A stretch of DNA of 64,000 nucleotides from Aeriscardovia aeriphila (GTDB lineage Bacteria; Actinomycetota; Actinomycetes; Actinomycetales; Bifidobacteriaceae): contig CASERW010000002.1 in NCBI GenBank assembly GCA_949290445.1, forward strand, positions 1 to 64,000. Direction: 5' to 3'. Positions within the stretch are counted from its first letter, which is position 1; each line of letters opens with the position of its first letter. Under the pieces are notes generated by a model. The model was given only the letters and a program-made list of their open reading frames with translations. It had not been told where the DNA came from and searched no databases. The position numbers and the translations under genes were made by a program. This document shows, one piece after another, positions 461 through 62,798 of the stretch.

Positions 461-470
461 CTGATAATCT
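461..470 (-). repeat. AGATTATCAG repeat copy (intergenic)
   Basis: A perfect copy of the window-wide 10-mer, 8 bases after the preceding stop codon. The rest of the 148-base spacer up to 601 holds no gene I can support, only the ribosome binding site of the next gene. Confidence 0.8.
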
Positions 471-601
471 AGGTGGCTTGTGCTGCCCAGATTCACCGGC
501 ATAGCCTTTCGGATTGCGAAGAAACAGCAAATTCTCGCGCTGGTGCACCTCCTGCTCTCGCGCAATGTTCTACAAAGGGAGAGGACGAGAAGGGAGATAT
601 T

Positions 602-2173
602 GTGGCTGCTTTTGATGATGATTTCGTACCGCCAAGCTTTACTCCCCATAATTCTCGGCGTCGCCCCTCCTCAGCTGCTCAGCGCGCTGATGGCTCTTAC
701 GCGCATAACTCAGGTCAGCAGGGTTCGAATGTTCAGAATTTCCACCACATTCAGAACTCTCAGCGCGTAGGAAACCCGCAGGCCCAGCGCGCGTCTCAGG
801 TTGGCCGCAATCCTCAAGCTAGCCGCTATTCTCAGCCTCAGCGCAACCCGCAAGCTCCGCGTCAGGTCAATTCTGCTCAGCCTCAGTCCCGTCAGTACCA
901 GCAGCCACAGGCACGTAACTCGCAGGCTCGCTTCTCTTCTGACCCCTACTCTCGCGCACCGCAGGCTCGCGGCGGCAATTACCCTTCTTTTGCTCCCTCT
1001 TCGCGCCGAGATTATCAGCCCGCACCTTCTTTTGCGCCGCGTAATTCGCGTGCCGCTCAAGGTTCTCGTGCCGCTCAAGGCTCTCGCTTTGCCGAAAACT
1101 CGCGCATTCCTCAAGGCTCTCGCTTTGCTGACAGCCAGCATCCTTCCTTTGAACCACGCTCTCCTCGCGGCCCGCACGCACCCCTCGACCCTCACTCGGG
1201 CAACCTTGCGGGTGAGTCTCTCACGAAAGCTCGCCCCAAGCGGCATATATTTTTGCGCGTTCTGGCAGTTCTGCTCGTGCTCATTCTGATTTTCTGCACG
1301 GGAGTGTACTTCTGGGCAAATTCCAAGCCGAAGCGCTTTGACGCTTTGAGCTCGCGCGCCGACGATTCTACTCATACTTGGCTGATCCTCGGTTCCGATG
1401 TGCGCGACGGTGCTCGCGGCACTGGCGCTGAAGATTCTGTTCCTGGCGAGCGTACCGACACGATCATGCTGTTAATCAAGCCGGCTTCTGGCCGCGCAGC
1501 TCTCATTTCCATTCCTCGCGACACTTTGGTCACTCAAGACGATGTGGATATGAAGATCAACGCTGTAGCAGAAAAGTACGGTTGGCCGGCATTGTCTGCC
1601 CAGGTGGAGAGCATTTCTAACATCAAGGTCGACCATGTGGTCAAGATCGGCTTCTCCGGCGTACAAAATGTTGTCGACGCTTTGGGCGGCGTGAATTTGT
1701 GCTACGACCAAAATGTTGATGACGCAAACTCGGGTATGAAGTGGACTGCTGGCTGCCACACGGTGAATGGCGAACAGGCTCTCTCCTTCTCGCGTATGCG
1801 CTACTCCGACCCGATGGGTGATTTTGGCCGTACGAAGCGTCAGCGTCAGGTTGTTGCTGCTATTGCCAAGCAGACGATGGCCCCGTCGACGATTTTCAAC
1901 CCGCATAAGCTCTTCTCGGTGGCGGGCGCTGGCCTCGATTCGCTCACCGTTGATAATTCAGTGAATCCGTTCAACTTGGCACAAATGGCTTTGGCTTTCC
2001 GTGAAGCGACCGGCCCGAGCGGTATCACTGGCTTGCCGGTGGTCAAGTCGATGGGTTATTACGTCGACGGCATCGGTTCGACGGTGTTGCTCAACTCGGA
2101 GGCTTCCCTCACTTTGTTTGCCAAGATTATCAATGGCGAAGAAGAGCCGGGCGTTGTGGGCGGCATCATCTGA
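602..2173 (+). CDS. LytR-CpsA-Psr (LCP) family cell wall ligase
   Basis: LCP proteins transfer undecaprenyl-linked glycopolymers onto peptidoglycan outside the membrane. I start at GTG 602, because AGGGAG sits five bases upstream; the frame is open back to 473. The 523-residue protein has a ~205-residue cytoplasmic N-terminus rich in Gln, Arg, Ser and Pro with repeated GSRAAQ/GSRFA units. A membrane segment follows at about 214-238, then an LCP domain at about 255-425. Visible family motifs are LILGSDVR, RTDTIMLL, ISIPRDTL and an Arg-rich SFSRMRYSD...GDFGRTKRQRQ stretch that contacts the pyrophosphate lipid. The N-terminal extension is long for the family. One AGATTATCAG copy lies inside at 1009-1018. 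Confidence 0.9.
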   Translation: MAAFDDDFVPPSFTPHNSRRRPSSAAQRADGSYAHNSGQQGSNVQNFHHIQNSQRVGNPQAQRASQVGRNPQASRYSQPQRNPQAPRQVNSAQPQSRQYQQPQARNSQARFSSDPYSRAPQARGGNYPSFAPSSRRDYQPAPSFAPRNSRAAQGSRAAQGSRFAENSRIPQGSRFADSQHPSFEPRSPRGPHAPLDPHSGNLAGESLTKARPKRHIFLRVLAVLLVLILIFCTGVYFWANSKPKRFDALSSRADDSTHTWLILGSDVRDGARGTGAEDSVPGERTDTIMLLIKPASGRAALISIPRDTLVTQDDVDMKINAVAEKYGWPALSAQVESISNIKVDHVVKIGFSGVQNVVDALGGVNLCYDQNVDDANSGMKWTAGCHTVNGEQALSFSRMRYSDPMGDFGRTKRQRQVVAAIAKQTMAPSTIFNPHKLFSVAGAGLDSLTVDNSVNPFNLAQMALAFREATGPSGITGLPVVKSMGYYVDGIGSTVLLNSEASLTLFAKIINGEEEPGVVGGII

Positions 2174-2238: not shown

Positions 2239-4386
2239 ATGTCACTCCATCACTTCTCACACTGCACTCGTGCAGCTGACCGAGGCTCTTGTGCTGCTGC
2301 CACAGGCTCTTGTACTTCTGCGCGACGCTCTCCGACCTCTGCGCGACGCTCACCTGTCGCTGCAGGACCTTCTCCTGCTGAAACACGCCGCTCTGGCACT
2401 TCTGCTCGGCAACTTGCACTCACTCGATTGCTCGCTTTTCTGCGCTTCTTGCCTCTGCTCGCACAGTTTGCCATGGTAGGCATCGCCTGGTGGGCAGGGA
2501 ATATCCCATTCTTGGTCATGAGTATCGCTAACGCAGCCTTAAGCCTGACTTCCGTTCTCACCGAGATTATCAGAAAGAAAGATGCAGCAACTTTCAGCGA
2601 AGAGCAGCCCTCTCACACCCATGAGCCGCAAGTGGAAGATGAGAAAACGTGGATCCACCATCAGGTGGAGTTGCTCGCTACCGCTCCTAGTAACGCGAAC
2701 GCGCACACCAGTATGTTCGCAGCATCGCAGCCTTTCACTTCCTTCATGCCAGCGCAGCTCACATCACCCGACTGGCGATCAATTCTGCGCTACTGGCTAC
2801 GTGATTCTTCCTTCCTGCCTGATGGCAGTGTTCAGCTCACTTCTGCGGTAGATCTTCGTGTTCCTCTCGGCTCAACGCTGCTCTACCCTACTGCCCAGCT
2901 CGATGAGCTCACCGTAGACCTTGGCCAGCATGGCCCGCATGTGCTAATCGCAGGAACGACCGGCTCGGGCAAATCTGTTCTCTTACAAAGCTGGTGTGCA
3001 AGCTTAGCGTTACGCAATAGCCCTGAGCGTGTACAGTTCATCTTCCTCGACTTCAAAGGCGGAGCTACTTTCAATGATTTGAAACATCTGCCTCATGCTC
3101 GCGGTTGCGTATCCGACCTCTCGATTGCCCATGCGAAGCGAGCTCTGCGCGCAATCGAAGAAGAGCTGCATCGCCGAGAGCAGCTCGTTGCCCATCATCA
3201 CGTTTCGCAGATCACTCAGCTCAGCTCGCCTCCAGCACACCTGATTATTGTGGTGGATGAGTTCACAGCGCTGAAAAACCAGTTGCCCGACTACGTGCAG
3301 CGCCTCACCCGGATTGCCTCCCAGGGCCGATCTTTAGGCATGCACCTGATTTTGGCCACTCAGTCACCCCTAGGTCAGTTGAGCACAGATATGCGAGCAA
3401 ACCTCTCCCTGCTCGTGTGTTTGCGTTTGCGCGATAGCATGCAATCAACTGACCTCGTGGGTGTGCCGGATACGGCCCACCTGCCGAGCATTCCTGGCTT
3501 AGGCATTGTGGAGTATGGTCAAGGCCCTCAGCTTTTCCATGCGCCGCACCTCGATTCGTGTGCTACTTTGGTTCACCACTGTTCTCTCGCTGCGCAGTTT
3601 ATGGAAAATACTCCTGTACAGGAGCTCTTTTCTGCACCTTTGCCCCGCAATCTCCCCTGGGGTGGCCCTTCAACCTCGCTCAGCCTTCCCCCAACCCCAC
3701 TGAGCCTCCCTTCAAGTTCTCTCGGTCTCTCCACAACTGTGCACCAGCTTGCTCTTGGCCTACAGGATAGTGGGACTGCGCTGCTACCTGCTTGCGTCGA
3801 CCTCACTCACGGCAACATCGCTATCGTGGGCGGGCATGGCAGAGGCAAAACCAACCTGCTCACCCTCTTGCGCACCCAATACGAGGAAGCGCGCTCATCG
3901 CAAGAAAACCCTGAGATTACCACTGCTGATGACTCATCAGCTTTTACTGTGCGCTGGCGTGATGACGCTGACCAACTGTTGGATCCCACTCATTCAGACG
4001 CGCTGATAATCCGGGAAGAACTGCACAATCCGAAACTGAGGACCGTAATGTGCTTGACCAGTGCGAAATATGTGCGCCGAGCTGAGCAATTCGCTACGGT
4101 GATTTACTTTCCCACGGGCGAGCCCACTAGTGATGCTCTCGCCGGATTATCACGCCCAGCAGTGCAGGAATGGGAAGCTGCAGATTACACATGTCCCGGC
4201 CGCGCTGTGCTCATGACAGGCGCGCAGCAGCTTACCGTTCAGTGCTACCGCATGGGCGAAACCGCGCGCAGCACAGTACTGAGCTCATCACCGTCACCGT
4301 CGTTCGAGAGAAATGCCGACTCGGCGCAACGGTCAAAACAGCCTAGATGCGCTCCGCGTTCTGAGCTGCACGCAATGTCACCGTAA
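2239..4386 (+). CDS. FtsK/SpoIIIE-type (EssC/EccC-like) membrane ATPase
   Basis: A membrane-bound P-loop ATPase of about 715 residues. Two hydrophobic segments lie near residues 70-102. The first ATPase domain has Walker A GTTGSGKS near 237, DFKGGATF near 271, the Walker B segment VVDEF near 338 and a QGRSLGMHLILATQSP sensor segment. A second, weaker domain has GGHGRGKT near 531 but no convincing Walker B. Tandem domains of this kind are typical of type VII (ESX) secretion ATPases; FtsK itself has a single motor and a gamma domain, which is absent here. No WXG100 substrate gene is nearby. The start is uncertain: ATG 2239 has GGAGG only one base away, and GTG 2221 is also possible. The first 60 residues are Arg/Ser/Ala-rich low complexity. 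Its 3' end overlaps the convergent pdtaS by 44 bases. Confidence 0.8.
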   Translation: MSLHHFSHCTRAADRGSCAAATGSCTSARRSPTSARRSPVAAGPSPAETRRSGTSARQLALTRLLAFLRFLPLLAQFAMVGIAWWAGNIPFLVMSIANAALSLTSVLTEIIRKKDAATFSEEQPSHTHEPQVEDEKTWIHHQVELLATAPSNANAHTSMFAASQPFTSFMPAQLTSPDWRSILRYWLRDSSFLPDGSVQLTSAVDLRVPLGSTLLYPTAQLDELTVDLGQHGPHVLIAGTTGSGKSVLLQSWCASLALRNSPERVQFIFLDFKGGATFNDLKHLPHARGCVSDLSIAHAKRALRAIEEELHRREQLVAHHHVSQITQLSSPPAHLIIVVDEFTALKNQLPDYVQRLTRIASQGRSLGMHLILATQSPLGQLSTDMRANLSLLVCLRLRDSMQSTDLVGVPDTAHLPSIPGLGIVEYGQGPQLFHAPHLDSCATLVHHCSLAAQFMENTPVQELFSAPLPRNLPWGGPSTSLSLPPTPLSLPSSSLGLSTTVHQLALGLQDSGTALLPACVDLTHGNIAIVGGHGRGKTNLLTLLRTQYEEARSSQENPEITTADDSSAFTVRWRDDADQLLDPTHSDALIIREELHNPKLRTVMCLTSAKYVRRAEQFATVIYFPTGEPTSDALAGLSRPAVQEWEAADYTCPGRAVLMTGAQQLTVQCYRMGETARSTVLSSSPSPSFERNADSAQRSKQPRCAPRSELHAMSP

Positions 4387-6999: not shown

Positions 7000-7494
7000 T
7001 CATTGAGACTGCTGAGCCTTGTAAGGCTGAGCATCCACAATCGTAGCCTGAATCTCACGGCCTGTTGGTGCAGTGTAAGTGACAGTATCACCCGTGTGAT
7101 GATCCATCACAGCCTGGCCAATCGGAGACTGTGGGCTGATAATCTGCTCGGAAGTGGCAATAGACAGGTCATGAGAACCCACCAAGTACTTGCCTTCCAT
7201 CGAGCCGATCTTCAAAGTGACCAGAGTGCCATTGCCCACGGTGCCTGCCTCAGGAGGGGTGATAATCTTCGAGTCGCGCAACTTGACGATCAACTCGTTG
7301 ATTCGACCCTCATTCTTCGCCTGTGCCTCACGAGCGGCGTGGTAACCGCCGTTCTCGGACAAATCGCCCTCAGCGCGCGCAGCGGAGATCTTCTGAACGA
7401 TCTCTTCGCGCAATGGGCCCTGACGATGCTCGAGCTCCTTACGCATCTCATCGTAAGCGTCCTGAGTCAGCAGATAGATCTTATCCTCTGCCAT
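7000..7494 (-). CDS. greA: Transcription elongation factor GreA
   Basis: GreA rescues backtracked RNA polymerase by stimulating transcript cleavage through the secondary channel. The 164-residue length is normal. The N-terminal coiled coil carries the acidic tip motif at SAARAEGDLSENGGYHAA, whose Asp-Leu-Ser-Glu positions the catalytic metal. The C-terminal FKBP-like globule includes SPIGQAVMDHHTGDTV. AAAGGAG precedes the ATG. The gene lies downstream of an FKBP gene in the same direction, separated by a hairpin. It carries one perfect AGATTATCAG copy (7136-7145) and a one-mismatch copy (7259-7268). Confidence 0.97.
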   Translation of the reverse strand: MAEDKIYLLTQDAYDEMRKELEHRQGPLREEIVQKISAARAEGDLSENGGYHAAREAQAKNEGRINELIVKLRDSKIITPPEAGTVGNGTLVTLKIGSMEGKYLVGSHDLSIATSEQIISPQSPIGQAVMDHHTGDTVTYTAPTGREIQATIVDAQPYKAQQSQ

Positions 7495-7532: not shown

Positions 7533-7562
7533 TGGTAATCTCAAGAAATTTTGAGATTATCA
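7533..7562. repeat. Hairpin built from an inverted pair of the window repeat
   Basis: TGGTAATCTCAA (7533-7544) and TTGAGATTATCA (7551-7562) form a 12-bp stem with one G-T wobble and a GAAATT loop. The right arm holds a perfect AGATTATCAG (7554-7563), and the FKBP stop codon lies inside it. There is no U-tract, so a terminator role is only possible. Confidence 0.7.
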
Positions 7563-7976
7563 GCGAGAAGTGGTCGACACAATGTCAACGACGAACACCA
7601 AAGTGGCGCCGCCAGGAATGCCAGCAGACGGGATGCCACGAGAACCGTAGCCATACTCGGCTGGGATGGAAACCACGAGACGAGAACCAACGTTGTGGCC
7701 AGGAACGGTGTTATCCCAACCCTTAATGACCTGGCCAATGCCAATGCCGAAGGTTGCTGGCTGATGACGGTTGAAAGAAGAATCGAAGGGGACGTCAGAA
7801 CCCCACACGACACCGTGATAGTTCACAGTGACCATGTCACCAGGGCGCACGACTGGGCCGTCGCCTTCCACCAGCTCGACAGCCTTCAAACCTGCTGGAG
7901 CCTCAGCCTGTGGGAAGGAAATGGCTGGCATTTCGCCGAAGCCACCAGTGACCACTGGCATCTGTGCTTCACTCAT
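7560..7976 (-). CDS. FKBP-type peptidyl-prolyl cis-trans isomerase
   Basis: A single-domain FKBP of 138 residues without signal peptide, so probably cytosolic; it catalyses proline isomerisation. Typical elements are GDMVTVNYHGVVWGSDVPFDSSF, the FGIGIGQVIKGWDN loop and VVSIPAEYGYG, which form the active-site pocket. GGAGTAAAC precedes the ATG. Its stop codon is part of an AGATTATCAG repeat copy. It is likely co-transcribed with or just upstream of greA. Confidence 0.93.
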   Translation of the reverse strand: MSEAQMPVVTGGFGEMPAISFPQAEAPAGLKAVELVEGDGPVVRPGDMVTVNYHGVVWGSDVPFDSSFNRHQPATFGIGIGQVIKGWDNTVPGHNVGSRLVVSIPAEYGYGSRGIPSAGIPGGATLVFVVDIVSTTSR

Positions 7977-9150: not shown

Positions 9151-10212
9151 TCACCTCGAAGCAAGCATACTTCGACCCGCGTCAAGAATAATTCCCTCCA
9201 GCAAGCCGCGCTCCGAAGCAGTGTAACTCGTAATCTCATGGCCTGCCTTACGAGTCAGTGCGTTGACCAGCGTCAAAAGCCTCGAGTAGACGAGCACGCC
9301 GCCGCCGATAACGTCGCGCCTACCGGGGTGAATGACCGGCCAGCTCTCCATATCCTTTGTGGAAAGCGACAGAATCATGTCAGCAGCCTTCTTCGCGTCC
9401 TCGATGCTCACCTGCGCACCGTCGACCAGCTCGCGCGAATACACCTTTTCGCCCTGAGCGGCGAGGCTGAGCGTCGTAATAGTTCCCGACACGCCGATGA
9501 GCGTCCGGGTTTTCTCAAGATTAACAGTGCGCAAGGCATCATGCAGAACGCCATCAATATCGTCCTGCGCCTGCGCAATCTGCTCGGCAGTGGCCGGGTC
9601 GGAGAGCAAATGCCTTTCGCTCATCCTCACCGAACCTATATTCATGCTGATCGACTGAGCAACTTCGCTGGCCTGCTCCCCTGTTCCGCCCAGCACCATT
9701 TCAGTCGAGCCACCGCCGAGGTCCACCACCAGCAACGGAGCTTTGTCGCGCAACTGCTGAGCACTCAAATGGGAGGTCGCTCCCAAGAAGCTCAAGCGCG
9801 CTTCCTCAGTGCCCGGGATCACTTCTGGGCGCGCGCCGAGAAGGCGTTCCACCTCGTCTTCAAACTCTTCACGGTTCGAGGCATCACGAGTAGCCGAAGT
9901 GGCAACGAAGCGGATGCGATCGACACCACCAGCCAGTCTGATAATCTCGGCAAATCGAGCAACAGACGCATAAGCACGCTCGAGAGCTTCCGGCGCAAAA
10001 GCGTGATTGCGGTCGACGTCCTGGCCTAGGCGGATCACGTCCATAATGCGCGGCACGCGAACGTGGAGACCGGCTTCGTCAACGTCGGCGATCATGAGGC
10101 GAATGCTGTTGGTGCCGCAGTCGATACCGGCCACGCGCACGCTGCCCTCAGGCCTCGGGGTTGCGGCAGCCTCACGGGCGAACTCGCGCTCCTGCTCAGT
10201 CAATTCCGTCAT
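9151..10212 (-). CDS. Ppx/GppA family phosphatase (exopolyphosphatase-like)
   Basis: An enzyme of the sugar kinase/Hsp70 fold that removes phosphate from polyphosphate or pppGpp. The 353-residue length matches the short, two-domain actinobacterial form (no HD domain). The first phosphate-binding loop GIDCGTNSIRLMI is near residue 30, FVATSATRDASNREEF supplies the catalytic Glu region, and the second loop is VVDLGGGSTEMVLGG. GGAG lies upstream of the ATG. It heads away from DUF501 and ftsB in the same direction with a repeat-filled spacer between. One AGATTATCAG copy lies inside (9938-9947). Confidence 0.93.
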   Translation of the reverse strand: MTELTEQEREFAREAAATPRPEGSVRVAGIDCGTNSIRLMIADVDEAGLHVRVPRIMDVIRLGQDVDRNHAFAPEALERAYASVARFAEIIRLAGGVDRIRFVATSATRDASNREEFEDEVERLLGARPEVIPGTEEARLSFLGATSHLSAQQLRDKAPLLVVDLGGGSTEMVLGGTGEQASEVAQSISMNIGSVRMSERHLLSDPATAEQIAQAQDDIDGVLHDALRTVNLEKTRTLIGVSGTITTLSLAAQGEKVYSRELVDGAQVSIEDAKKAADMILSLSTKDMESWPVIHPGRRDVIGGGVLVYSRLLTLVNALTRKAGHEITSYTASERGLLEGIILDAGRSMLASR

Positions 10213-10326: not shown

Positions 10327-11139
10327 TTAGCGCTCAAAATCGGCAACTTTCAGCGTGCAACGGCACACCGCAGGGTCGAACTCGTGCTTCATACGGCACA
10401 ACGCTTCATCGCCCACCGGGTTCACGCCTGGACCCATCGCCAGCGCATGACCGACGAGAGCGTGCAAGCACTTGACGCGGGTCGGCATGCCACCTGCAGA
10501 AATATTGAGAATATGCTCCTGCGAGTCACCGAGCTCGCGAGCCAGCTCATTTCTCACGGCAAGGTACATCTCATGGGCGCGAACATACTGGCGGTGGCGC
10601 TCCAGATTATCACCCTGCACCTCGCCAGAATCCGCAGTTTCAACAGCGTCCGAAGCAGCTGCACCTAAAGTTTGCGCAGCAGCAGCCTCGCCAGCAATCG
10701 CTTCCTCGCCGTACAGCCCCTGCAGCTCAACCATCACACCGGCCGATTCCAAATGTGATGCTGCCTTCACCGCCTCCGGGCTCGTCAAATAGAAAGTGGT
10801 CGGGAAAGGAGTAGGATGTTTGACGCGCTCGGTAATCAGCGGTCGAGTTGCCACAACCAGCGGGGTTCCGCACTGTTTGCAACGCGCTGCGACGGAGATA
10901 ATTCCACGCGGGTAACGTCCCAACTGCTCGGTGACGACGGCAATATCCGCTTGGCTCGCCCTCTCGGCCAGTAACTGCTGAGCTCTGCTACGGCAGATGC
11001 GCAGATCATCTTCGCTCAAGTGCGGCACATCATTCATCAGCGTTGCCGGATCAAGTGTTGCCGGATCAGCCTTAGCCTCAGTCGTTTCACTTCTCACGGC
11101 AGAGCCTTCGTTCATGGCGAGCTCGTCATTGGTTGGCAT
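10327..11139 (-). CDS. DUF501 family protein
   Basis: A conserved actinobacterial protein of unknown function (270 residues with this start). The start at 11139 has AAAAGGACCAG just upstream. It overlaps the end of ftsB by 14 bases, suggesting coupled translation. The DUF501 core runs from about residue 45: VVTEQLGRYPRGIISVAARCKQCGTPLVV, then the PTPFPTTFYLTSP motif and a C-terminal GMPTRVKCLHALVGHALAMG...NPVGDEAL segment. Six Cys residues in pairs (CKQC and CRC among them) suggest possible metal binding, which is inference. A ~45-residue Ala/Glu-rich insert interrupts the middle. Confidence 0.88.
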   Translation of the reverse strand: MPTNDELAMNEGSAVRSETTEAKADPATLDPATLMNDVPHLSEDDLRICRSRAQQLLAERASQADIAVVTEQLGRYPRGIISVAARCKQCGTPLVVATRPLITERVKHPTPFPTTFYLTSPEAVKAASHLESAGVMVELQGLYGEEAIAGEAAAAQTLGAAASDAVETADSGEVQGDNLERHRQYVRAHEMYLAVRNELARELGDSQEHILNISAGGMPTRVKCLHALVGHALAMGPGVNPVGDEALCRMKHEFDPAVCRCTLKVADFER

Positions 11140-17231: not shown

Positions 17232-17276
17232 AGATTATCAGTGCGTTTCAGCGCTCAAGCTGCTGGTGATTATCAG
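17232..17276 (+). repeat. Two same-direction AGATTATCAG copies in the mfd-pth spacer
   Basis: A perfect copy (17232-17241) and a one-mismatch copy TGATTATCAG (17267-17276) stand 35 bases apart between the pth stop and the mfd start. Confidence 0.8.
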
Positions 17277-35282: not shown

Positions 35283-35292
35283 CTGATAATCT
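35283..35292 (-). repeat. AGATTATCAG repeat copy (intergenic)
   Basis: A perfect copy in the 214-base divergent spacer between the ABC ATPase and pdxY genes. It is the last perfect copy before a gap of more than 10 kb. Confidence 0.8.
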
Positions 35293-45831: not shown

Positions 45832-46173
45832 AACATCACCGTCAGCCCGGAAGAACCGAACCTCAAGCAACGAATGATTACTTTACACCATCTCAGCTTT
45901 CGCGCAAGCCCTTTCGGCGTTTTCCTCTTATTTGAGGCGTGTCTCACACCGCAAAACAGAGTCGTAGAGCCGAAAGGCGAGGGTCAAAGGACTGATAATC
46001 TGGGGAAATTTCTTGGCCACCGGCGTGTCATACAAGAAAGGGAGCAGAACCACAAGCCCCACTCCCCTCGTACGCTGGAACGGTTGTCAATCGCGCATTA
46101 CCTCGATCGCGTCACACCAGGTCAGCATCACGCCACCGTCACGACAGAATGCCTCTGCAACATCCCGCCCACA
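45832..46173. other. 342-base spacer without a supported gene
   Basis: This holds the presumed tRNA-Arg promoter side, a perfect CTGATAATCT at 45992-46001, and otherwise unstructured sequence. Open frames here are short shadows or lack ribosome binding sites. Confidence 0.6.
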
Positions 46174-52272: not shown

Positions 52273-53934
52273 ATGACTTCTCCAACTACCCCAGCGAGCG
52301 ATTTCGTGCGCCCCGATCAGCGTGCAGCTCTCAGCCACCACGCCAACTGGCTCAACGACGCTGTTTTCTACGAAATCTACCCGCAGAGCTTTGCTGACTC
52401 GAACGGCGATGGCATCGGCGACATCCCCGGCATCATTGACCACCTCGATTACATTTCCAGCCTGGGCTTCACCGCTTTGTGGATTAACCCGTGCTTCTCC
52501 TCCCCCTTCCAAGACGCTGGCTACGACGTCGACGACTTTATGAAGGTTGCCCCACGCTACGGCACCAATGACGACCTCGTGCGCCTGTTCGACGAAGCCC
52601 ACCGTCGTAACATCAAGGTTTTGCTCGACCTCGTTCCTGGCCACACTTCTCTCAACCACCCCTGGTTCAAGGCCTCCCAAAACCCAGACCCTGCTGCTCG
52701 CGGCGAGTTCTCCGAGCGTTATATTTGGACTGGTAGCGCGTTCGAAAATGGCGATGGCATGCCTTTCATCTCCGGCACCACCCAGCGTGACGGCGCTTAT
52801 ATTGTCAACTTCTTCGCCTTCCAGCCCGCTCTTAACTATGGCTATCGCAACCCGAGCAAGCCGTGGCAAAAGGACATCAATGATGATGCTCCTACCGCCA
52901 CTCGTGAGGCAATGCGTGAAGTGATGCGCTTCTGGCTGAGCAAGGGTGCTGACGGCTTCCGCGTCGATATGGCTGATTCTCTGGTCAAGAATGACGATAA
53001 TGAGAAGTCGCAGACGGTGGAGAGCTGGCGCCGTATGCTCGCCCCGATTAAGTCGGAATTCCCTGAGGCTGCTTTTGTTTCGGAATGGTCGCGCCCGTGG
53101 CAGTCGCTCAAGGCTGGTTTTGACATGGACTTCTACCTCGATTGGGGTTGGGTTCCTAATGGTTACAACATTTTGTTGCGTCGCGCTTCTGACCAGCTGG
53201 ACCACAATAACGACTTGAGTTACTTCAATGCTGACTCTGGCCGCTCCCCTCTCGAGTTTTTGGCAGATTATCAGCCTCAATATGAGAACACGAAGGATTT
53301 GGGCTTCTTCAGCTTCATCACCTGCAACCATGACTCTCCTCGTCTCGCTCCTCGTTTGAGTGAGAGGGAGAGGCGTGTTGCTTTGGCCTTCTTGTTGCTC
53401 ATGCCTGGTGTTCCTTTCGTCTATTACGGCGATGAGATTGGCATGAACTTCAGAAAGCTCGTCTCTAAGGAGGGTGGTTTCGCTCGTACTGGTTCTCGCA
53501 CGCCGATGCAGTGGGATCGCACTGATAATCTGGGGTTCTCCTCTGCACCTGCCGACCAGCTGTACTTGCCAGTAGACCCAAGCGAAGATGCGCCGACGGT
53601 TGCCGAGCAGATTGATGATGAGGATTCTCTGCTGAGCTATGTCAAGCAGATCATTTTCTTGCGCCACTCGCATTCGGCTCTGAAGGCGGCGAGCGACATG
53701 CAGATCGTCTTTGCTCAGGAAGGTTACCGTTCTTTGGCCGTGTTGCGTGAGGATGGTACGCAGAGGATGCTTCTGGTGGTCAACCCTGGTCGCGACACCG
53801 AGCAGTTTGAGCTTCAGGGCGTTGAGTTGGGCGATATGTCGCACGTCACCGCGCTCGTCGGTTCGGGAATTTGCGATGAGGAAAGCTCTTCGGTTCGCAT
53901 TTCTGGCCAGTCAGCTCTGCTTATCAGTTTCTAA
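52273..53934 (+). CDS. GH13 alpha-glucosidase/alpha-amylase-family enzyme
   Basis: A cytosolic glycoside hydrolase (553 residues, no signal peptide) that probably degrades the imported oligosaccharide. ATG 52273 has AAAGGG five bases upstream. The four GH13 regions are visible. Region I is DLVPGHTS (near 119), with Pro-Gly replacing the usual Val-Asn. Region II is DGFRVDMADS with the nucleophile Asp near 232. Region III is VSEWSRP with the acid/base Glu near 271, and region IV is CNHDSPR with the transition-state Asp near 353. NGDGIGDIPGI near 40 is typical of alpha-glucosidases. The exact subfamily and substrate are uncertain. Two perfect window repeats lie inside (53265-53274, 53522-53531). 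Confidence 0.9.
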   Translation: MTSPTTPASDFVRPDQRAALSHHANWLNDAVFYEIYPQSFADSNGDGIGDIPGIIDHLDYISSLGFTALWINPCFSSPFQDAGYDVDDFMKVAPRYGTNDDLVRLFDEAHRRNIKVLLDLVPGHTSLNHPWFKASQNPDPAARGEFSERYIWTGSAFENGDGMPFISGTTQRDGAYIVNFFAFQPALNYGYRNPSKPWQKDINDDAPTATREAMREVMRFWLSKGADGFRVDMADSLVKNDDNEKSQTVESWRRMLAPIKSEFPEAAFVSEWSRPWQSLKAGFDMDFYLDWGWVPNGYNILLRRASDQLDHNNDLSYFNADSGRSPLEFLADYQPQYENTKDLGFFSFITCNHDSPRLAPRLSERERRVALAFLLLMPGVPFVYYGDEIGMNFRKLVSKEGGFARTGSRTPMQWDRTDNLGFSSAPADQLYLPVDPSEDAPTVAEQIDDEDSLLSYVKQIIFLRHSHSALKAASDMQIVFAQEGYRSLAVLREDGTQRMLLVVNPGRDTEQFELQGVELGDMSHVTALVGSGICDEESSSVRISGQSALLISF

Positions 53935-53944
53935 AGATTATCAG
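53935..53944 (+). repeat. AGATTATCAG repeat immediately after the GH13 stop codon
   Basis: The perfect copy begins on the base after TAA. It is the third perfect copy within 680 bases. Confidence 0.85.
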
Positions 53945-54174: not shown

Positions 54175-55512
54175 TCACTCCATCGGCAGGGCTTCAGCAA
54201 CATTCTTCGGGAATCGAGAATCCTTAGCGAGCATCTCCTTCATCGTGACGAACTCATAGCCTTGCTGCTTCAGCCGAGGAATCAGAATGGACAAGGCCTG
54301 CGGAACCTGAGCGCCACCACCGTTATCGTGCAAAACGAAGATAGAACCATTGTGAGCGCGGCTGATCACCGTATTGGCAATCGTCTGCGCACCAATAGCC
54401 GACAAATCACCGGTATCAACATCCCACATGACGATTGAGGACGTCGTCTTGTGGATCGCCTGCCATACTTCCTTGGAATACGAGCCATAAGGAACGCGGA
54501 TCATGCGATTCGTCTTCTTATAGCCGGCAGCCTTACTCGTCTGCTCCTCGCCCTTACTCACCTCTTCAGCAACACCCTTCGGGTTATCCTGCATGACGAC
54601 GAGGTCCTGGTTGCTCCAGGTGTGCGAAGCAACCTGGTTGCCTTCGCTCGCAGCTCGCTTTTCGATGTTTGGGTCGTCTTTGGACAGCACGCCGTTGTCA
54701 AAGAAGGTGGCATGAGCGCCGTTTTGCTTCAAAACATCCAAAATGGCAGGAGTGTTCGAGGGATCGGGGCCGTCAGTGAAGGTGAGAGCGATGTACATCT
54801 TGTCGCCTTCAGGATTGGGGTTGAGCGAGTCAATAATCGTATCGACAGGCTTCTTCACCTCGCCCTTATCCACCTTTTCATGGGAAAGCTTACCCACCCA
54901 CACTTCGTGGTAGCCCGGCTTTCCTTGCACCTTCACGTATTGCACCGTGCCACCGGGGTTAAATTGCAAGCCCGGTTCGATCGGCGTGCGCGTCACATCA
55001 TGGTCTTCGGTGTAATTGCCGCCGGCAGACAAGCTCAACTCGTCTCCACGCTGCAATTTCGTGGTTTTGGCTGTGGCGTCACTGATAATCTGGCCGTTTA
55101 AAACAACCTCAGGAGCCGAGCCAGCGCCTTTCTTCAACACCTGGCCCGTAATAGAGAGCAGATCGCCATGAGCAACACCAAAGTAGTTATTCTTGGTCAG
55201 CAGCTCAGAAACCGTTGTGGACGCAGGAACAGAAACATCCTTATCGTCAACAACAACAGAAATATGGCGCTTATAGGTGAACCAATACCAGCCGCCGCCC
55301 ATAGCCAGGGCGATTACCAGCACGACGATGATGAGCTTGACGAGTTCAGGGACGCTTCTGCGCCGCGTTTCGACTGTTGCATACAGGTCGCCGCTCGCTT
55401 GAGCACTGAGCATCTCACGCTCTTCATCAGAACCCGGAACCATTCCGCGCGTGGGCACGGTTGAATTCGAGTTGGTGTACTCGTCATTCCAATCTCGAGC
55501 GCTCATGTTCAC
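54175..55512 (-). CDS. CE4 polysaccharide deacetylase-like protein, degenerate active site
   Basis: A membrane-anchored extracellular protein (445 residues). The cytoplasmic head (~52 residues) and one helix (about 55-77) are followed by a small ubiquitin-like DUF348-type domain (ISVVVDDKDVSVPASTTVSELL) and a linker. A NodB homology domain follows at about 235-440. CE4 motif 1 is TFTDGPDP, where TFDDGP is usual, so the catalytic base Asp is Thr. Motif 2 is SHTWSN, where the second metal His is replaced by Asn. Motif 3, RVPYGSY, is normal, as are MWDVDTGD and LHDNGG. It may be inactive as a deacetylase and act by binding wall glycan. One window repeat lies at 55082-55091. Confidence 0.88.
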   Translation of the reverse strand: MNMSARDWNDEYTNSNSTVPTRGMVPGSDEEREMLSAQASGDLYATVETRRRSVPELVKLIIVVLVIALAMGGGWYWFTYKRHISVVVDDKDVSVPASTTVSELLTKNNYFGVAHGDLLSITGQVLKKGAGSAPEVVLNGQIISDATAKTTKLQRGDELSLSAGGNYTEDHDVTRTPIEPGLQFNPGGTVQYVKVQGKPGYHEVWVGKLSHEKVDKGEVKKPVDTIIDSLNPNPEGDKMYIALTFTDGPDPSNTPAILDVLKQNGAHATFFDNGVLSKDDPNIEKRAASEGNQVASHTWSNQDLVVMQDNPKGVAEEVSKGEEQTSKAAGYKKTNRMIRVPYGSYSKEVWQAIHKTTSSIVMWDVDTGDLSAIGAQTIANTVISRAHNGSIFVLHDNGGGAQVPQALSILIPRLKQQGYEFVTMKEMLAKDSRFPKNVAEALPME

Positions 55513-55689
55513 TTCCCTCTCTGCACTGTTTACTCTGCTTAATTGTAATGAGGCATGTTACGAGAGCACGCTTCACCACGCTAGCTTGTCGAGCCTTCAC
55601 TGAACTTTCATGCACGCCGGGCCGCATGACGAAAGCCTTCTGGCTGACGAACTAGCATAGGAAAGAAGCCAAAGGGGAGGATTATCAGC

Positions 55690-57702: not shown

Positions 57703-59426
57703 CAGTTCTCCTCCCCCTTCTCATCAGCGTTTTGAGCGGCGTTTCCAGCGGTATCGTTTCCCTCATCTGCACCGCTTACCTCAGCGTGGCGCGTGTCAGC
57801 TTGAGCTTCGCGAATCGGATTGCCCTGCCCCGGCGTGCAGTCGCTAGCAAGCTGAACGTTTACCGCAAATTGTGCGCGCTCTTGCTGCCACGAATCCAAA
57901 CTGCGGCTCATCTCAAAAGCATCCACATCCTCATAAGGCAGGTAATAATGCTCAATGATTTTGCCCACCATGAAGCCGAACTTGCGGTACAGCTTCTGAG
58001 CAGCATCATTTTTCACGCTCACCTGCAGAACCATCTGCTTTTGCCCCTTGGCAACAGCATCGTCCAGCAGCCACACCATGAGAGCCTGAGCAACGTGCTG
58101 ACCTTGGAAAGCCTTGAAAACACATACGTCCAAAACCATGGACTCGCCGTGCTGCCTCGTCCAAGAAGCGGCAAAACCAGCAATTTCACCGTTTACCGTG
58201 AGCACGATGCGGTCCTGATCCGGCTTGGAAAGCTCCTTGTCCAAGAACTGCGCATCCCAGCCGACCGGGCCGAAAGCCTCAGCCTCCAACTGCTGGATGC
58301 GTGGAATATCAGCGTACGTAGCGCGACGGATCACGCGCTGCACACCGTCACGCTTGCCGTCGTGCTGAATACTGTTGCTCATCTCATCACTGAACTGATC
58401 CGCGCCGGCTTGTGAACTCTTCTTCGAAAAGGTTTCCAACTCGTCCGGATCATCCGGATCATCCACACCAGGGTCGGTCTTCGTGGCGAAACGCTTGAGA
58501 TCATCCTTATCCCACTCGCTCCACGCCAAATCACGCGCCTCTTGAGCCGCCTGCTTCTGCGTCTGCGGCGCCTCCGCCCTCAAATTCTGAGGCAACAGCT
58601 CGTCAGCAGTGGCCTGGCCAGCCTCACGATTCTTACCCTCCAACACCGGCTTCGGAACTCCCGGAAGCTCAGCATCAGGTCGGCGCAAATACAAAGGCTC
58701 GCTGCTCAGCGGCTGCTCACCCCTCGCCTCACGGTTATCCGCCTCAGCAACAGCCAGCTGGGCCATAAACTCCAGCGAATCGGCGCTTTCTTGCGTCAGC
58801 GACTGGTCAGTATCAATAACCACTGCGAGATTATCACTGCTCACCTTTTCAAATTCGGCAGCATACTTTGCACTGCCATGCCCCACGACCACCAAGCGCG
58901 CAGGCGAAGACGGCAAAACAAAGCCAATCTGCTGGTCAGCATCGTGCTGGGCTTTGGCAATGGTCGAGCTCACCTGCTGCGCAATATCCGCAGGGTAAGC
59001 AATATCCATCACTGATGAGGCAAGCGCTTGGCCATCCACCACTTGGAAGAGCTGCCAATACAGCTGCTTCCTGCGAGCATCGTTGAGCGAAAGCACATAG
59101 TAGGGCGTGTTTTCGCGGTTTTGGTAGGCATACCAGCTTGCTTGAACAGGAATAATCGACTGACCAATCAAACGCGCACCCGTGGCAAATGCGAGAGCAC
59201 GAGCCGCCACAATGCCCGCGCGCAAGCCGGTGAAAGGCCCGGGGCCAGTGCACACGACGATATCGCTCAACTGGCTTGGCTCAAGGCCAGCTTGCTGCAA
59301 GGCGCTGGCAATGCTGGGCGCGATTTGCTCGACGTGTTTGCGCGAGTCGGTGAGGGTGAGCGGCTCATGGCCGGCCACTCCCACGCTCAATCCGTAGGAA
59401 GTATCGATGACGAGAACATTCTTCAT
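57702..59426 (-). CDS. TsaB-RimI fusion protein
   Basis: Combines TsaB (scaffold partner of TsaD in t6A synthesis) with a RimI-type N-acetyltransferase. TsaB spans about residues 1-245 (VLVIDTSYGLSVGV, VVCTGPGPFTGLRAGIVAARALA). A ~110-residue acidic, Gln-rich linker with DDPDDPDELE follows. The GNAT domain lies at about 362-505 (RRATYADIPRIQQLEAEAF, VLDVCVFKAFQGQHVAQALMVWLL, NDAAQKLYRKFGF). The C-terminal ~55 residues are Ala/Gly/Glu/Asn-rich. Such fusions are known in bifidobacteria and relatives. ATG 59426 or GTG 59435 are both possible starts; the tsaE stop lies at 59428. Confidence 0.95.
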   Translation of the reverse strand: MKNVLVIDTSYGLSVGVAGHEPLTLTDSRKHVEQIAPSIASALQQAGLEPSQLSDIVVCTGPGPFTGLRAGIVAARALAFATGARLIGQSIIPVQASWYAYQNRENTPYYVLSLNDARRKQLYWQLFQVVDGQALASSVMDIAYPADIAQQVSSTIAKAQHDADQQIGFVLPSSPARLVVVGHGSAKYAAEFEKVSSDNLAVVIDTDQSLTQESADSLEFMAQLAVAEADNREARGEQPLSSEPLYLRRPDAELPGVPKPVLEGKNREAGQATADELLPQNLRAEAPQTQKQAAQEARDLAWSEWDKDDLKRFATKTDPGVDDPDDPDELETFSKKSSQAGADQFSDEMSNSIQHDGKRDGVQRVIRRATYADIPRIQQLEAEAFGPVGWDAQFLDKELSKPDQDRIVLTVNGEIAGFAASWTRQHGESMVLDVCVFKAFQGQHVAQALMVWLLDDAVAKGQKQMVLQVSVKNDAAQKLYRKFGFMVGKIIEHYYLPYEDVDAFEMSRSLDSWQQERAQFAVNVQLASDCTPGQGNPIREAQADTRHAEVSGADEGNDTAGNAAQNADEKGEEN

Positions 59427-59427
59427 A

Positions 59428-60063
59428 TCAGTCACTCACTTCTTGTAAAGCCCGCTTGAGATTATCAAAGCGCTCACCCCAGCCCACGCCAACAATGGAG
59501 ACCACGCGCTCTCCATCAGCACTGAGCTCTGTACTGTTTTCTTCTTCGTCGTTTCCTTCGCTGCGGTGAATATGAACTTCGAGGCGTGTATCAGCCAAAA
59601 TTCCAGCCATATGCTCGCCCCATTCCATCAGCACCACCGTGCCTTCGGAAGGGTCTTCGAGCTCTTCATCCAAACCTAAGGATTCGAGCTCATCCATCAG
59701 CGCACCCATCGTGTCGTTACCCGGCGCATGCATGACACCGCCAATGCGATACGCATCCACATGCACCAAGTGTGCAGGAGCACCGGAGGCGAAATGCCCA
59801 TCCAGTTCGCGAGCAATAGTGAAGGTAGGCGACACGATTGGCTCGTCAATTCCCAGGCCTTTGCCAATTCCTTGGGCGAAGGTGGTTTTCCCCGCGCCCA
59901 GTGGCCCAGACAGCAGCACAACATCTTGGCTTGTGAGCTGGCGAGCAAGCGCAGTGCCAATCTGGCGCATTGCGTCGGCGGTAGGGGCGGAAAGCATAAG
60001 AACGGGAGTGCCTGCCGGCAATTCCTCACTGACCACAAAACCATTGGCATCAAACTGTGCCAT
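59428..60063 (-). CDS. tsaE: tRNA threonylcarbamoyladenosine biosynthesis ATPase TsaE
   Basis: ATPase that drives turnover of the TsaB-TsaD complex. Walker A LLSGPLGAGKTTFAQGI is near residue 52, SPTFTIARELDG near 78, HVDAYRIGG near 98 and the Walker B-like VVLMEWGEHM near 145. At 211 residues it is longer than the usual ~155, because of a ~25-residue insert (MHAPGNDTMGALMDELESLG) and a C-terminal extension. Four bases separate it from holA, pointing to one transcript. A 9/10 window repeat lies at 59459-59468. Confidence 0.96.
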   Translation of the reverse strand: MAQFDANGFVVSEELPAGTPVLMLSAPTADAMRQIGTALARQLTSQDVVLLSGPLGAGKTTFAQGIGKGLGIDEPIVSPTFTIARELDGHFASGAPAHLVHVDAYRIGGVMHAPGNDTMGALMDELESLGLDEELEDPSEGTVVLMEWGEHMAGILADTRLEVHIHRSEGNDEEENSTELSADGERVVSIVGVGWGERFDNLKRALQEVSD

Positions 60064-60066
60064 TTT

Positions 60067-61008
60067 CTACCTTCCCTTACGAGCAATCAGTTCCACAGCA
60101 CTCTCTAAACGATAAAGAGGGTCTGCACCAGAAGATTTTGCATCACTATCCGCCTGCGCGAGAGCTTGGAAACAGGCGATAATCCCCTGGCTCGTCCAGC
60201 CTTGCGACTCCTTGCGATAGCGGTTTCTCACCCAATCGGAGCGAAACACCCCGTTCGGCAGCTTGCGCGGGTCGACGGCGCTCAACGTGAGCTGACGCAA
60301 ATGTGCAGCAAGCGCTCCAATAATGGCAGCAGGAGCAATGCCGTGAGAAAACCCATCGCGTAAAGCCACGATCGCTTGAGCAGCATTACCCGAAAATGCG
60401 GCGTCGCTGATCTGGAAGCCGGTGACCTCAGGAGAGCCTTCCAACACTTGGTCAACCTGGGCAATATCGACGGGGTTGGCATCCGTATCGTCACACAACT
60501 GGTCAACCAGAGCAGCCATCGCACCCGAATCGGAGCCCAGAACATCGCGAATTCGCTGCGCTGCCTGCGCGGTCACCGTCCGCTGATGTGCGGCAAACTC
60601 GGCGTTGACGTCAAAGTCAGCCACAGCGATAACCTGAGCGCCTGCGCGAGAAAGCTGGTTGAGAATACCCTGCCCCTTTTGGCCTTGGGGTTTGCGCGCA
60701 ATCACGCGGTTATCGAGGTTGTGCGTTTTCTTCGCTTCCTGGGCGAAACTCACGAGCGCGTCAACCAGTTCGTCGCTGGCTTTGTCCAGATTATCAATGA
60801 TGACAATCGACTGCGTGGAGAGTAGGGATGGTGATGCTGCTTCCCACAGGTCTGCAGCGCTGGCATCTTGTGCGTCGAGGGAGATGATCTCTGCTTCGGG
60901 CATGTCGCCGCGTAAGTGGTCACGTAATTGCCGTGCTTGACGTGAATTGAGGAACTCATCCCCACCGTTGATCACGCTCAAGGCTGGTGTTTGCACTGTT
61001 TGAGCCAT
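60067..61008 (-). CDS. holA: DNA polymerase III subunit delta
   Basis: Clamp-loader subunit that opens the beta ring. ATG 61008 is preferred because GAAGGGAG is better spaced than for the adjacent ATG at 61011. The 313-residue protein has the AAA+-like fold: LSVINGGDEFLNSRQARQLRDHL at the start, SPSLLSTQSIVIIDNLD near 65, VIAVADFDVNAEF, and the third-domain region with LRQLTLSAVDPRKLPNGVF. No ATP-binding motif is expected or seen. It sits between comEC and tsaE, as in many Gram-positives where holA follows comEC. Confidence 0.94.
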   Translation of the reverse strand: MAQTVQTPALSVINGGDEFLNSRQARQLRDHLRGDMPEAEIISLDAQDASAADLWEAASPSLLSTQSIVIIDNLDKASDELVDALVSFAQEAKKTHNLDNRVIARKPQGQKGQGILNQLSRAGAQVIAVADFDVNAEFAAHQRTVTAQAAQRIRDVLGSDSGAMAALVDQLCDDTDANPVDIAQVDQVLEGSPEVTGFQISDAAFSGNAAQAIVALRDGFSHGIAPAAIIGALAAHLRQLTLSAVDPRKLPNGVFRSDWVRNRYRKESQGWTSQGIIACFQALAQADSDAKSSGADPLYRLESAVELIARKGR

Positions 61009-61109
61009 CATTCTCCCTTCTTTCTCTATGGTAATTCGACCGGGGTTACAAGCAGCTGACGGCGTGATTCCCTCTCTCAGTGCGCGTTCGATGTGCCTTC
61101 ACTGTGCGT

Positions 61110-62798
61110 TCAGTGTGGCAGCGACACAGCGAAGTGCGCCACCCACGCCATCACCTCACAACAGACACCACTAACTGCCGCAAACGCGAAACCCAACCAC
61201 GGAAGAAGCCAACTGGTGAGCAAGGAAAGCAATCCCGCAATAGTGGCCACGCTCACCACCGGTGTGACGAGAAAATTTGCGAGCACAGCAATAAGCATCG
61301 AACTTCCCATCTGGCCGAGCATGAGCATCTGCACAGGGAGTATCGCCACCTGCGCGCTCATGGTGAGAGCCAAGCTTTCACTGAGTTTCTCTCGGCTTTT
61401 CGCACTGAAACCCAGCGCACGCAAGAGCCACGTTTTACTCATCAGCTGTGCCCAGTGATGAGCGAGCAGGATGATTCCACCGACTGCAGCGCAAGAGAAG
61501 GCGAAACCCACACTGAGAGCCAAATATGGCGCACAGATTAACACCCCCATGACACTCCAGCACAGAGCAGAGAGGCTTTGCGCGGGGCGACCTCTGAGGA
61601 GTGCCACGCTGGTGAAGCAGGCCATGACCACAGCTCTGAGCAAAGAATCAGAGGGAAAGAGCAGGCTTGCGCATGCTAGTACCAGCGCGAGGCTGATCAT
61701 CACTTTCATGCTTGCCCACAGGCGGGAACACGCTAAGCGTCTTTTTGCCCACTCTCTGATCAATGCCAAGTGCCCGCCTGAGACGGCGAGAAGGTGGATG
61801 ATTCCTGCTTCGCGAAACCATTGCGAGAGCTCTTCTTCTCGTTCGTGCAGGTCAGCATGGTGGGAGCTCAGCACATCTGCCCCACTGATTCCCATCGTGA
61901 CACCAGGTACGAGAATCGCTTGTGTGGGTGGGAGCTTCCGCGTTTGGCGAAGGAAGGCAGTGTTCAGTGAGGCGATGAGAGTACGAAAGGCTGGTGCTGC
62001 TCGCACTCGGTAGGAAAGCGGTTGAGTTGCACTACCAGCAAAACTGCCCGTTGAACTGCTCGCTGAACTATTCTCTGAGCTACTCCCCTGTGCTGTTAAA
62101 GCAGATGTTTTCGCTTCTTTTTGCATGGCCCAGGCGTCTTGATTTCCATATTGGGGAAGGCTGAGCTTCGCTGGCATACTCCACACTTGCGCACCTCCTG
62201 CCTGGCACAGCGCTCCTGTTGCAAAGATTCGGATTCGAGCTGAGGACGGAGTGACAATCTGGGCGCGTTGAAGGCTGAGAGCTCGGGCATCGGCATAGCA
62301 GTCGAAGCCTTTCTTCGCCGTTGCCAGAGCTGGAGTAGTGAGTTCAAAGTCGATCCGCACCGGCTCGCGCGCAGTTGATGCTTTCTTGCGCTGTGTGGCG
62401 AATTGGGCTGAATATCGCCACGAATTGTGCGCAGTTTGTTGCACCGTGTCGTGAGAGGCTTGTTGTGAAGAACTGGTGACAAGCTGGATGAGCGGGTCGG
62501 AACGTTGGTTCATCAGCAATACTTCACAGCTGATGAGCATGATCACCAGTGCAAGCGCCGTGACAGCCAGCTGGGAGCTCAGCATGTGAGTAAACCAGGC
62601 GGTGAAAGGTGTGCGGTGAGAATGACGCGTCCTGATAATCTCGAGGGCTACGGGGATGAGCAGGAAGCTGAGCGCGATGAAAAGGCCAAATTTGAGCGAG
62701 AGGATGTGGCTTAGGCGCAGGGCGGCGACCAGCCACAGGGCGAGTGCGGGTGGCAGGAGGCGGTAATCGCGGGAGCCGTTTTCGTTAACGCACGACAA
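61110..62798 (-). CDS. comEC: ComEC competence channel protein without metallo-beta-lactamase domain
   Basis: Forms the inner membrane channel for single-stranded DNA during transformation. I start at TTG 62798 because GGAGGG lies six bases upstream. That gives a 14-base overlap with comEA and excludes a non-homologous extension antisense in style to comEA. The ~562-residue protein has N-terminal helices and an OB-like DUF4131 region. The competence domain carries HLLAVSGGHLALI, SDSLLRAVVMACF and FAFSCAAVGGIILLAHHW. It ends right after the last helix, so the C-terminal nuclease-like MBL domain of B. subtilis ComEC is absent. One window repeat lies at 62632-62641. Confidence 0.92.
   Translation of the reverse strand: MSCVNENGSRDYRLLPPALALWLVAALRLSHILSLKFGLFIALSFLLIPVALEIIRTRHSHRTPFTAWFTHMLSSQLAVTALALVIMLISCEVLLMNQRSDPLIQLVTSSSQQASHDTVQQTAHNSWRYSAQFATQRKKASTAREPVRIDFELTTPALATAKKGFDCYADARALSLQRAQIVTPSSARIRIFATGALCQAGGAQVWSMPAKLSLPQYGNQDAWAMQKEAKTSALTAQGSSSENSSASSSTGSFAGSATQPLSYRVRAAPAFRTLIASLNTAFLRQTRKLPPTQAILVPGVTMGISGADVLSSHHADLHEREEELSQWFREAGIIHLLAVSGGHLALIREWAKRRLACSRLWASMKVMISLALVLACASLLFPSDSLLRAVVMACFTSVALLRGRPAQSLSALCWSVMGVLICAPYLALSVGFAFSCAAVGGIILLAHHWAQLMSKTWLLRALGFSAKSREKLSESLALTMSAQVAILPVQMLMLGQMGSSMLIAVLANFLVTPVVSVATIAGLLSLLTSWLLPWLGFAFAAVSGVCCEVMAWVAHFAVSLPH

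Follow-up and report, generated by a model that had tools for sequence, protein, structure and literature searches.

Why should a single ten-base word, AGATTATCAG, recur 21 times, in near-equal numbers on either strand, within 64 kb of a bacterial chromosome? The stretch that raises this question (hereafter the window) comprises bases 1–64000 of contig 2 of a 1.52-Mb draft genome (G000; 71 contigs, 84% complete), and an earlier examination of its letters and open reading frames (the sequence-only reading) had proposed the word as a DNA uptake sequence, i.e. a tag by which a competent cell recognises DNA of its own kind. The host of the window is, judged from its DNA, closely related to Aeriscardovia aeriphila (Bifidobacteriaceae): the ComEC frame of the window is 89% identical to ComEC of A. 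aeriphila LMG 21773, and the DNA that can be aligned between the two genomes is 95.5% identical. A. aeriphila is described, in the available part of PMC5540593, as a member of the Bifidobacteriaceae isolated from pig caecum and as the deepest branch of its family. The analysis presented here indicates that AGATTATCAG probably lies at the core of a DNA uptake sequence belonging to the A. aeriphila lineage. With slightly less assurance, it is likely to represent a third, independently evolved uptake sequence and the first in a Gram-positive organism (Actinomycetota), with a receptor based on the Tad pilus or on ComEA; on the best reading of the evidence it would be the first uptake sequence outside the Neisseriaceae and Pasteurellaceae within the literature searchable here.

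Within the window, all 21 perfect copies previously counted by eye were recovered, ten on the plus and 11 on the minus strand, where 0.04 would be expected and where none of 100 dinucleotide shuffles contained more than one. Their positions had been given exactly, save for a site placed at 20994 which in fact begins at 20993. Matches with at most one mismatch number 43 against 2.4 expected, the one-mismatch set consisting of 14 outer-base variants (the 13 already named, all of which are there, and one at 2124 that had been overlooked) and eight which differ at an inner base. The count of 13 of the 21 copies continuing with YG on the 3′ side was also exact. The sequence-only reading had further noted an excess of sites in spacers; this excess is real, with eight of the 21 sites so placed (binomial P = 0.0014), while spacers occupy 11.3% of the window by the gene calls used here, slightly above the figure of under a tenth that had been claimed.

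It had been anticipated that an uptake sequence would occur in hundreds of copies genome-wide, on both strands alike, without polarity relative to replication and in close relatives only, and this is the distribution that was observed. The window's own genome carries 367 copies of AGATTATCAG (180/187 by strand, or 0.24 perfect copies per kb), compared with none of a reversed control word, and A. aeriphila carries 376 (196 and 180 by strand), while the remaining 187 of the 189 Bifidobacteriaceae genomes hold 0–16 copies each. No strand switch accompanies the sign change in GC skew, as sites are distributed 60/53 on one side of it and 45/30 on the other (P = 0.37). For finer analysis 1.41 Mb of DNA from both species was sampled (0.45 Mb from the window's own genome and 0.96 Mb from A. 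aeriphila), and in this sample 330 exact copies were found (97 and 233, respectively) against 3.0 expected under a third-order model; per 0.45–0.54 Mb sampled, approximately one copy was expected. The longer word AGATTATCAGYGCG, which was surveyed in 396 genomes of the order (a draw that did not include A. aeriphila), is present 49 times in the window's own genome and once each in three of the 395 others.

Eleven more Bifidobacteriaceae genomes, at 20–140 kb each, were also searched for words of the uptake type, and none of comparable strength was returned, with the proviso that 20 kb could miss a sparse signal. The best 9- and 10-mers in those genomes reached log-likelihood scores of at most 37 for DnaA-box words (in G018, G053 and G117) and at most 22 for other words; in the samples from the two Aeriscardovia genomes, the motif words scored 79–128. 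Separately, GTTATCCACA and words overlapping it, which are DnaA-box words, were the strongest or nearly the strongest repeated 9- and 10-mers in the contig starts of these three genomes (loci L092–L097); repeats of such words are expected near a replication origin. Two genomes assigned to the genus of the window's host (G002 and G003) have ComEC proteins just 30 and 36% identical to that of the window over the aligned part and Ppk proteins 73–75% identical to its Ppk, and the sample of G003 has a G+C content of 65% (loci L085–L088). On these sequence comparisons the genus grouping looks very loose, and the absence of the motif from both genomes says little about when it arose, since both are distant from the window's genome.

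AGATTATCAG forms the centre of a longer motif, approximately 24–30 bp in length, because many of the preferences in its flanks recur around spacer sites, coding sites and variants. The flanks of 196 solitary exact sites read approximately G..ATTTCTCV upstream, and YGCGC followed by an A+T-rich stretch downstream, such that the full motif may be written as approximately G..ATTTCTCV-AGATTATCAG-YGCG with A+T-rich tracts on both sides. Many of these preferences are shared by spacer sites, coding sites and weaker variants at levels above those around shuffled control words; for example, C at position −4 has a frequency of 0.71 in spacers, 0.42–0.80 in the three common coding frames and 0.31–0.62 around seven variants, as against 0.26 in controls. 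The preferences fade beyond a total length of approximately 30 bp. The core itself is graded: substitutions are common at positions 1, 6, 7 and 10, and forms substituted at G2, A3, T4, T5, C8 or A9 occur at or near chance. In the sampled DNA of both species AGATTATCAC was counted 146 times (2.8 expected), AGATTACCAG 77 times (3.3 expected) and AGATTGCCAC 72 times (3.9 expected), and the whole class NGATTNNCAN amounts to 2621 occurrences against 794 expected.

The sites are preserved between the two species to a greater extent than the DNA around them. Among aligned sites, 71 of 76 are identical in both genomes, compared with 1989 of 2795 (71%) of the 10-mers lying 30–120 bp away (P = 3e-6, an optimistic value since the local 10-mer windows overlap). 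Third codon positions are identical in 143 of 147 cases inside sites and in 3370 of 3692 nearby (P = 0.006), and in a smaller comparison with shuffled words 53 of 57 motif sites were conserved as against 46 of 61 controls. The largest motif-free hole in the A. aeriphila sample proved to be a 37-kb tailed-phage prophage on contig 5 (approximately 401.9–438.95 kb; L105 1900 to L106 18950), ten proteins of which were scanned and fall into terminase, major head, major tail, tape measure, other tail, anti-repressor, RecE-like, Erf-like and polymerase-exonuclease families. This prophage contains no exact AGATTATCAG (9.1 expected, P = 1e-4), no AGATTATCA (15.1 expected, P = 3e-7) and five relaxed sites (25.2 expected, P = 1e-6), these P values being optimistic as the region was picked for being the largest hole. 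The evidence for an absence of the motif from acquired DNA comes from this one prophage. The 11-kb S10/spc ribosomal-protein cluster (L063 5924–17048), a run of 21 co-directional called genes of which the four tested encode S10, L3, L2 and SecY, is also free of exact sites (2.6 expected) and of relaxed sites (7.4 expected). One region of the window's genome (L049 2111–9597) includes stretches of 3.7 and 2.4 kb that are lineage-specific relative to A. aeriphila and hold no copies of the motif.

Placement of the sites within the sampled DNA is far from uniform. Spacers hold 157 of the 330 sites (a total in which an overlap of less than 6 bp with a called gene was tolerated) and make up 14.4% of the DNA, a 5.4-fold difference in density, the spacer fractions being dependent on gene calls from a home-made hexamer model rather than a standard gene finder. 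When the 135 sites that lie wholly within a spacer longer than 10 bp and flanked by called genes on both sides were divided by context, 9 were found in divergent, 94 in tandem and 32 in convergent spacers (47.8, 120.9 and 32.5 kb, respectively), which amounts to 0.19, 0.78 and 0.99 sites per kb (P = 2e-7). The other 173 sites are in coding DNA, 106 along the gene strand and 67 opposite to it, representing a slight coding-strand bias (P = 0.004), and they fall mainly into three combinations of frame and strand that spell Ile-Ile, Asp-Tyr-Gln or Asp-Asn. The pressure is on the DNA rather than on a peptide, since coding sites are found on both strands and in frames which spell different peptides. 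Across 800 kb of A. aeriphila, bins of 50 kb contain 6–17 sites each, save for a single bin of two sites in which the prophage lies. Exact inverted pairs with a 2-bp spacer number six in the 1.41 Mb (12 of the 330 exact sites), namely one in the window (25688–25709), four on A. aeriphila contig 5 (24298, 146665, 219169 and 451193) and one on contig 2 of the window's own genome (109307). In the case of the window pair, the transcribed strand leads from the hairpin into a ribosome-binding region and has no T-run; the pair may therefore act on the leader of the next gene instead of terminating transcription.

The sites of the window illustrate this distribution. Those in spacers are at 461–470 (minus), 7554–7563 (plus), 17232–17241 (plus), 35283–35292 (minus, divergent spacer), 45992–46001 (minus) and 53935–53944 (plus, in a convergent spacer directly after a stop codon), together with the intergenic left and right arms of the inverted pair at 25688–25697 (plus) and 25700–25709 (minus). 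On the plus strand, intragenic copies are located in a LytR-CpsA-Psr gene (1009–1018), a gene with an FtsK/SpoIIIE-family domain (2564–2573), an mfd-like gene (15769–15778, opposite to the gene strand), a UPF0182 gene (20993–21002), a serine dehydratase gene (26941–26950) and an alpha-amylase-family gene (53265–53274). Those on the minus strand are in a GreA/GreB-family gene (7136–7145), a Ppx/GppA-family gene (9938–9947), an mfd-like gene (16775–16784), a histidine kinase gene (29444–29453), an alpha-amylase-family gene (53522–53531), a polysaccharide deacetylase gene (55082–55091) and comEC (62632–62641). Among the one-mismatch forms, the enriched variant AGATTATCAA is present at 2124–2133, 27253–27262, 59459–59468 and 60788–60797 (plus) and at 31288–31297 (minus), and the enriched variant GGATTATCAG at 4003–4012 and 27737–27746 (minus) and 55679–55688 (plus). 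AGATTATCAC, the second commonest form, is found at 7259–7268 (minus) and at 10604–10613, 45649–45658 and 58828–58837 (plus), and AGATTACCAG at 27982–27991 and 45280–45289 (minus) and 33096–33105 (plus). Single occurrences were recorded for AGATTAACAG (9518–9527, plus), AGATTTTCAG (13560–13569, minus), TGATTATCAG (17267–17276, plus), AGATTGTCAG (39788–39797, plus, within dprA), AGATTAGCAG (43699–43708, minus) and the mildly enriched AGATTATCAT (48385–48394, minus); a further match at 55998 is of a non-enriched type and was left out of this set.

The competence genes that had been recognised in the same window are indeed present. The open frame of comEA (62785–63996, minus; HHH_3 match) encodes a membrane anchor, a Ser/Gln-rich linker and a C-terminal helix-hairpin-helix. 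This frame runs approximately 200 codons upstream of the anchor as a Ser/Arg-rich stretch, which is probably untranslated; judged from the position of the anchor, translation probably starts near 63.4 kb. The DNA channel gene comEC (Competence family) lies at 61110–62798 (minus), its longest open frame beginning at 63194 and overlapping comEA, while dprA (DNA_processg_A) is at 39037–40368 (plus) and a gene for a ComM-like ATPase of the Mg-chelatase family at 37051–38757 (plus). Outside the window, a Tad-type pilus locus (L051 7079–11606) encodes a T2SSE ATPase, a T2SSF protein, a TadE protein and, in the place of TadZ, a CbiA/ParA-family protein. Two more small genes of this locus are Flp-like and TadE-like by position and look alone; the former (L051 8042–8458, minus) matches only DUF4244 in Pfam, which may be an actinobacterial Flp pilin family, and the latter has a sub-threshold match to an unrelated family. 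The T2SSF-family match of the Tad locus is the only one in the window's own genome, and A. aeriphila also has one.

In the explanation favoured here, the competence apparatus would include a DNA receptor, at the surface or in the envelope, that binds the motif, and DNA bearing the motif would be taken up preferentially, by a route that may lead from a Tad/Flp-type pilus with minor pilins through ComEA and ComEC to DprA and RecA. By analogy to the minor pilin ComP, the TadE protein, the Flp-like and TadE-like proteins and ComEA are candidate receptors. Fragments of the organism's own kind would recombine into the chromosome, and copies would build up because uptake of such fragments would transfer each perfect site that arises by chance to neighbouring cells faster than it is lost. 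Copies would thereby accumulate to hundreds where they are tolerated (in spacers and permissive codons), a newly arrived prophage would be without them, and biased uptake would be the cause of the enrichment.

Judged against the two known systems, the motif matches most of the published properties of the neisserial DNA uptake sequence (DUS) and the Pasteurellaceae uptake signal sequence (USS): it shares with this class over-representation, strand balance, an extended motif with A+T tracts, permissive placement with conservation, and a host with competence genes and a type IV filament, and it lacks the bias towards gene ends inside genes. The DUS is read by the minor pilin ComP, and in the available part of PMC2397512 it resembles the present motif in being 10–12 bp long, present in many copies in the core genome at permissive sites, and highly conserved; frequent occurrence in close inverted pairs, a further likeness, is also listed there, as is absence from recently acquired genes, to be compared here with the motif-free prophage and with the alignment gaps that show no depletion. 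Its word, GCCGTCTGAA, is unrelated to AGATTATCAG by eye, and its hosts are Gram-negative bacteria with type IVa pili, in contrast to a Gram-positive relative of the bifidobacteria in which the sole T2SSF-family match is that of the Tad locus. Similarly, the USS, for which PpdA/ComN is the proposed receptor, has a word (AAGTGCGGT) that bears no resemblance to AGATTATCAG by eye. It does, in the accessible parts of PMC7811141 and PMC12616744, have a rigid inner core, tolerant outer positions, flanking A+T tracts and a site density of the same order when variants are included. In contrast to the USS, A+T-rich tracts lie on both sides of the core here, and the density of perfect copies is approximately one quarter of that of the Haemophilus influenzae USS, given as one per ~1,000 bp in the excerpts available. 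As regards the apparatus, Micrococcus luteus, an actinobacterium and thus of the same phylum, has tad genes with comEA and comEC and no comG cluster, like the present host (PMC4322843 and PMC6370729, as excerpted), and its tad genes are required for transformation according to the accessible portion of PMC4322843. The term 'uptake sequence' is absent from PMC4322843, so no preference under that name is described there. Among the open-access papers listed, none describes an uptake sequence in Actinomycetota as far as titles and the beginnings of abstracts show, subscription papers and preprints being outside the search. A 2010 paper on Gardnerella reports comEA, comEC and cinA and, in the portion available, speaks of natural competence as one means by which genes are transferred (PMC2928729), and no demonstration of natural transformation appeared in the open-access literature retrieved in partial form for Bifidobacterium, natural competence and comEC.

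Several observations weigh against biased uptake as the explanation. ComEC is also encoded in 13 of the 15 other genomes scanned, including relatives without the motif, and each of three motif-free genomes (G002, G003 and G007) has matches to four of the five Tad-locus proteins compared. The com and Tad genes are thus necessary background and do not explain specificity, since relatives without the motif also have them; their presence was rejected as a discriminating test. Gene-end placement, which that reading had also proposed, was not found, as the 173 coding sites of both species are spread flatly over the length of genes (16, 21, 15, 20, 17, 19, 18, 19, 12 and 16 per decile). Site spacing is near random, with no evenness of the kind sometimes claimed for uptake sequences. 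Nine collinear, non-overlapping alignment gaps, totalling approximately 33.5 kb, hold 9 sites where shared DNA would predict 7.8, and so show no depletion, these gaps being a mixture of true inserts and diverged shared DNA. At certain flank positions the preferred base is no commoner than in controls, in particular coding frames or around particular variants: T at −3 has a frequency of 0.16 among same1 coding sites and of 0.00 among the eight same0 sites (controls 0.20), T at −7 around AGATTGCCAC is at 0.19 (controls 0.21) and Y at +10 around AGATTGCCAG is at 0.45 (controls 0.47). Finally, no open-access paper combines Aeriscardovia with DNA uptake, and those retrieved for Aeriscardovia with competence are, by their titles, gut, microbiota or feeding studies. 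The proposal of an uptake sequence is therefore borne out in its genome-level predictions and not in the specificity of the com/Tad genes, gene-end bias or depletion in gaps. Features that an uptake sequence would predict beyond those named in the sequence-only reading, namely the extended motif with A+T tracts, the scarcity in divergent spacers, the conservation and the absence from a prophage, were observed as well. Gene-end bias is not taken as defining the class, because in the available part of PMC2346458 it is reported for all Pasteurellaceae and not for Neisseria; the same source reports an in-gene orientation bias for uptake sequences, with which the coding-strand bias observed here (106 of 173) agrees.

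The main rivals are a binding site for a protein that organises or regulates the chromosome and a Chi-like site. According to the former, which is considered unlikely, an abundant, lineage-specific architectural or regulatory protein would bind the motif, and a graded, A+T-flanked site with two-sided flanks, enriched in spacers and conserved, is what such a protein might leave behind. Such sites are, however, not expected to avoid the spacers that hold promoters, and for this reason the scarcity of sites in divergent spacers (9 in 47.8 kb) disfavours this explanation; additionally, coding DNA holds just over half of the sites (173 of 330), which occupy several frames. The sites of matS, SlmA and Noc are regionally distributed, unlike the motif, which shows no regional pattern along 800 kb of the A. 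aeriphila genome apart from the prophage, and a macrodomain signal was dropped on the latter ground. In the case of a Chi-like site, a nuclease-helicase that processes DNA ends (of RecBCD, AddAB or AdnAB type) would read the word and switch from destruction to repair, the chromosome having been selected to carry it. In favour of this reading, the word is over-represented, lineage-specific, conserved and missing from a prophage, and Chi sites too are over-represented host words that phage DNA lacks. Chi sites are usually skewed in orientation with replication, and Chi words are short and mostly G-rich, whereas the present motif has no orientation preference about the GC-skew switch and is longer and graded, with A+T tracts on two sides. 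A five-fold enrichment in spacers and an avoidance of divergent ones are likewise not predicted by Chi, and this explanation is regarded as improbable, marginally more so than an architectural or regulatory site.

The remaining candidates fare considerably worse. A mark of restriction-modification or epigenetic type, recognised through methylation and enriched by self-protection, would agree with a lineage-restricted word and is very improbable: four tolerant positions and flanks of approximately 10 bp on each side are unlike a methylase target, and genomes usually avoid restriction sites instead of accumulating them. It is equally doubtful that the motif is a dispersed repeat or hairpin element (similar to miniature inverted-repeat transposable elements or repetitive extragenic palindromes, or a set of transcription terminators). 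The six exact inverted pairs speak for such an element, yet just 12 of 330 exact sites are paired, many are inside genes and the flank preferences fade beyond approximately 30 bp, and the window pair, reading into a ribosome-binding region without a T-run, is unlike a terminator; terminators and dispersed repeats were dropped accordingly. A polar segregation signal resembling the FtsK-orienting polar sequences (KOPS), for which the frequency of a short word and the gene with an FtsK/SpoIIIE-family domain in the window might be cited, has next to no probability, as strands are balanced genome-wide and on either side of the GC-skew switch, and it too was dropped.

Should AGATTATCAG indeed be the core of an uptake sequence, the sequence-specific recognition of self DNA in transformation would have had at least three separate origins, in this instance without an outer membrane or ComP-type pilins. 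The trait would then be independent of the outer-membrane secretin and of type IVa pili, being found in a monoderm, gut-dwelling relative of Bifidobacterium, and this lineage would offer a further, independent case in which to ask why uptake specificity evolves, with the cultured strain A. aeriphila LMG 21773 as a test bed. Bifidobacteria and their relatives are hard to engineer, and the motif, if its proposed role is correct, would be a possible tag for the delivery of DNA into this group and would suggest that natural transformation occurs in the bifidobacterial family.

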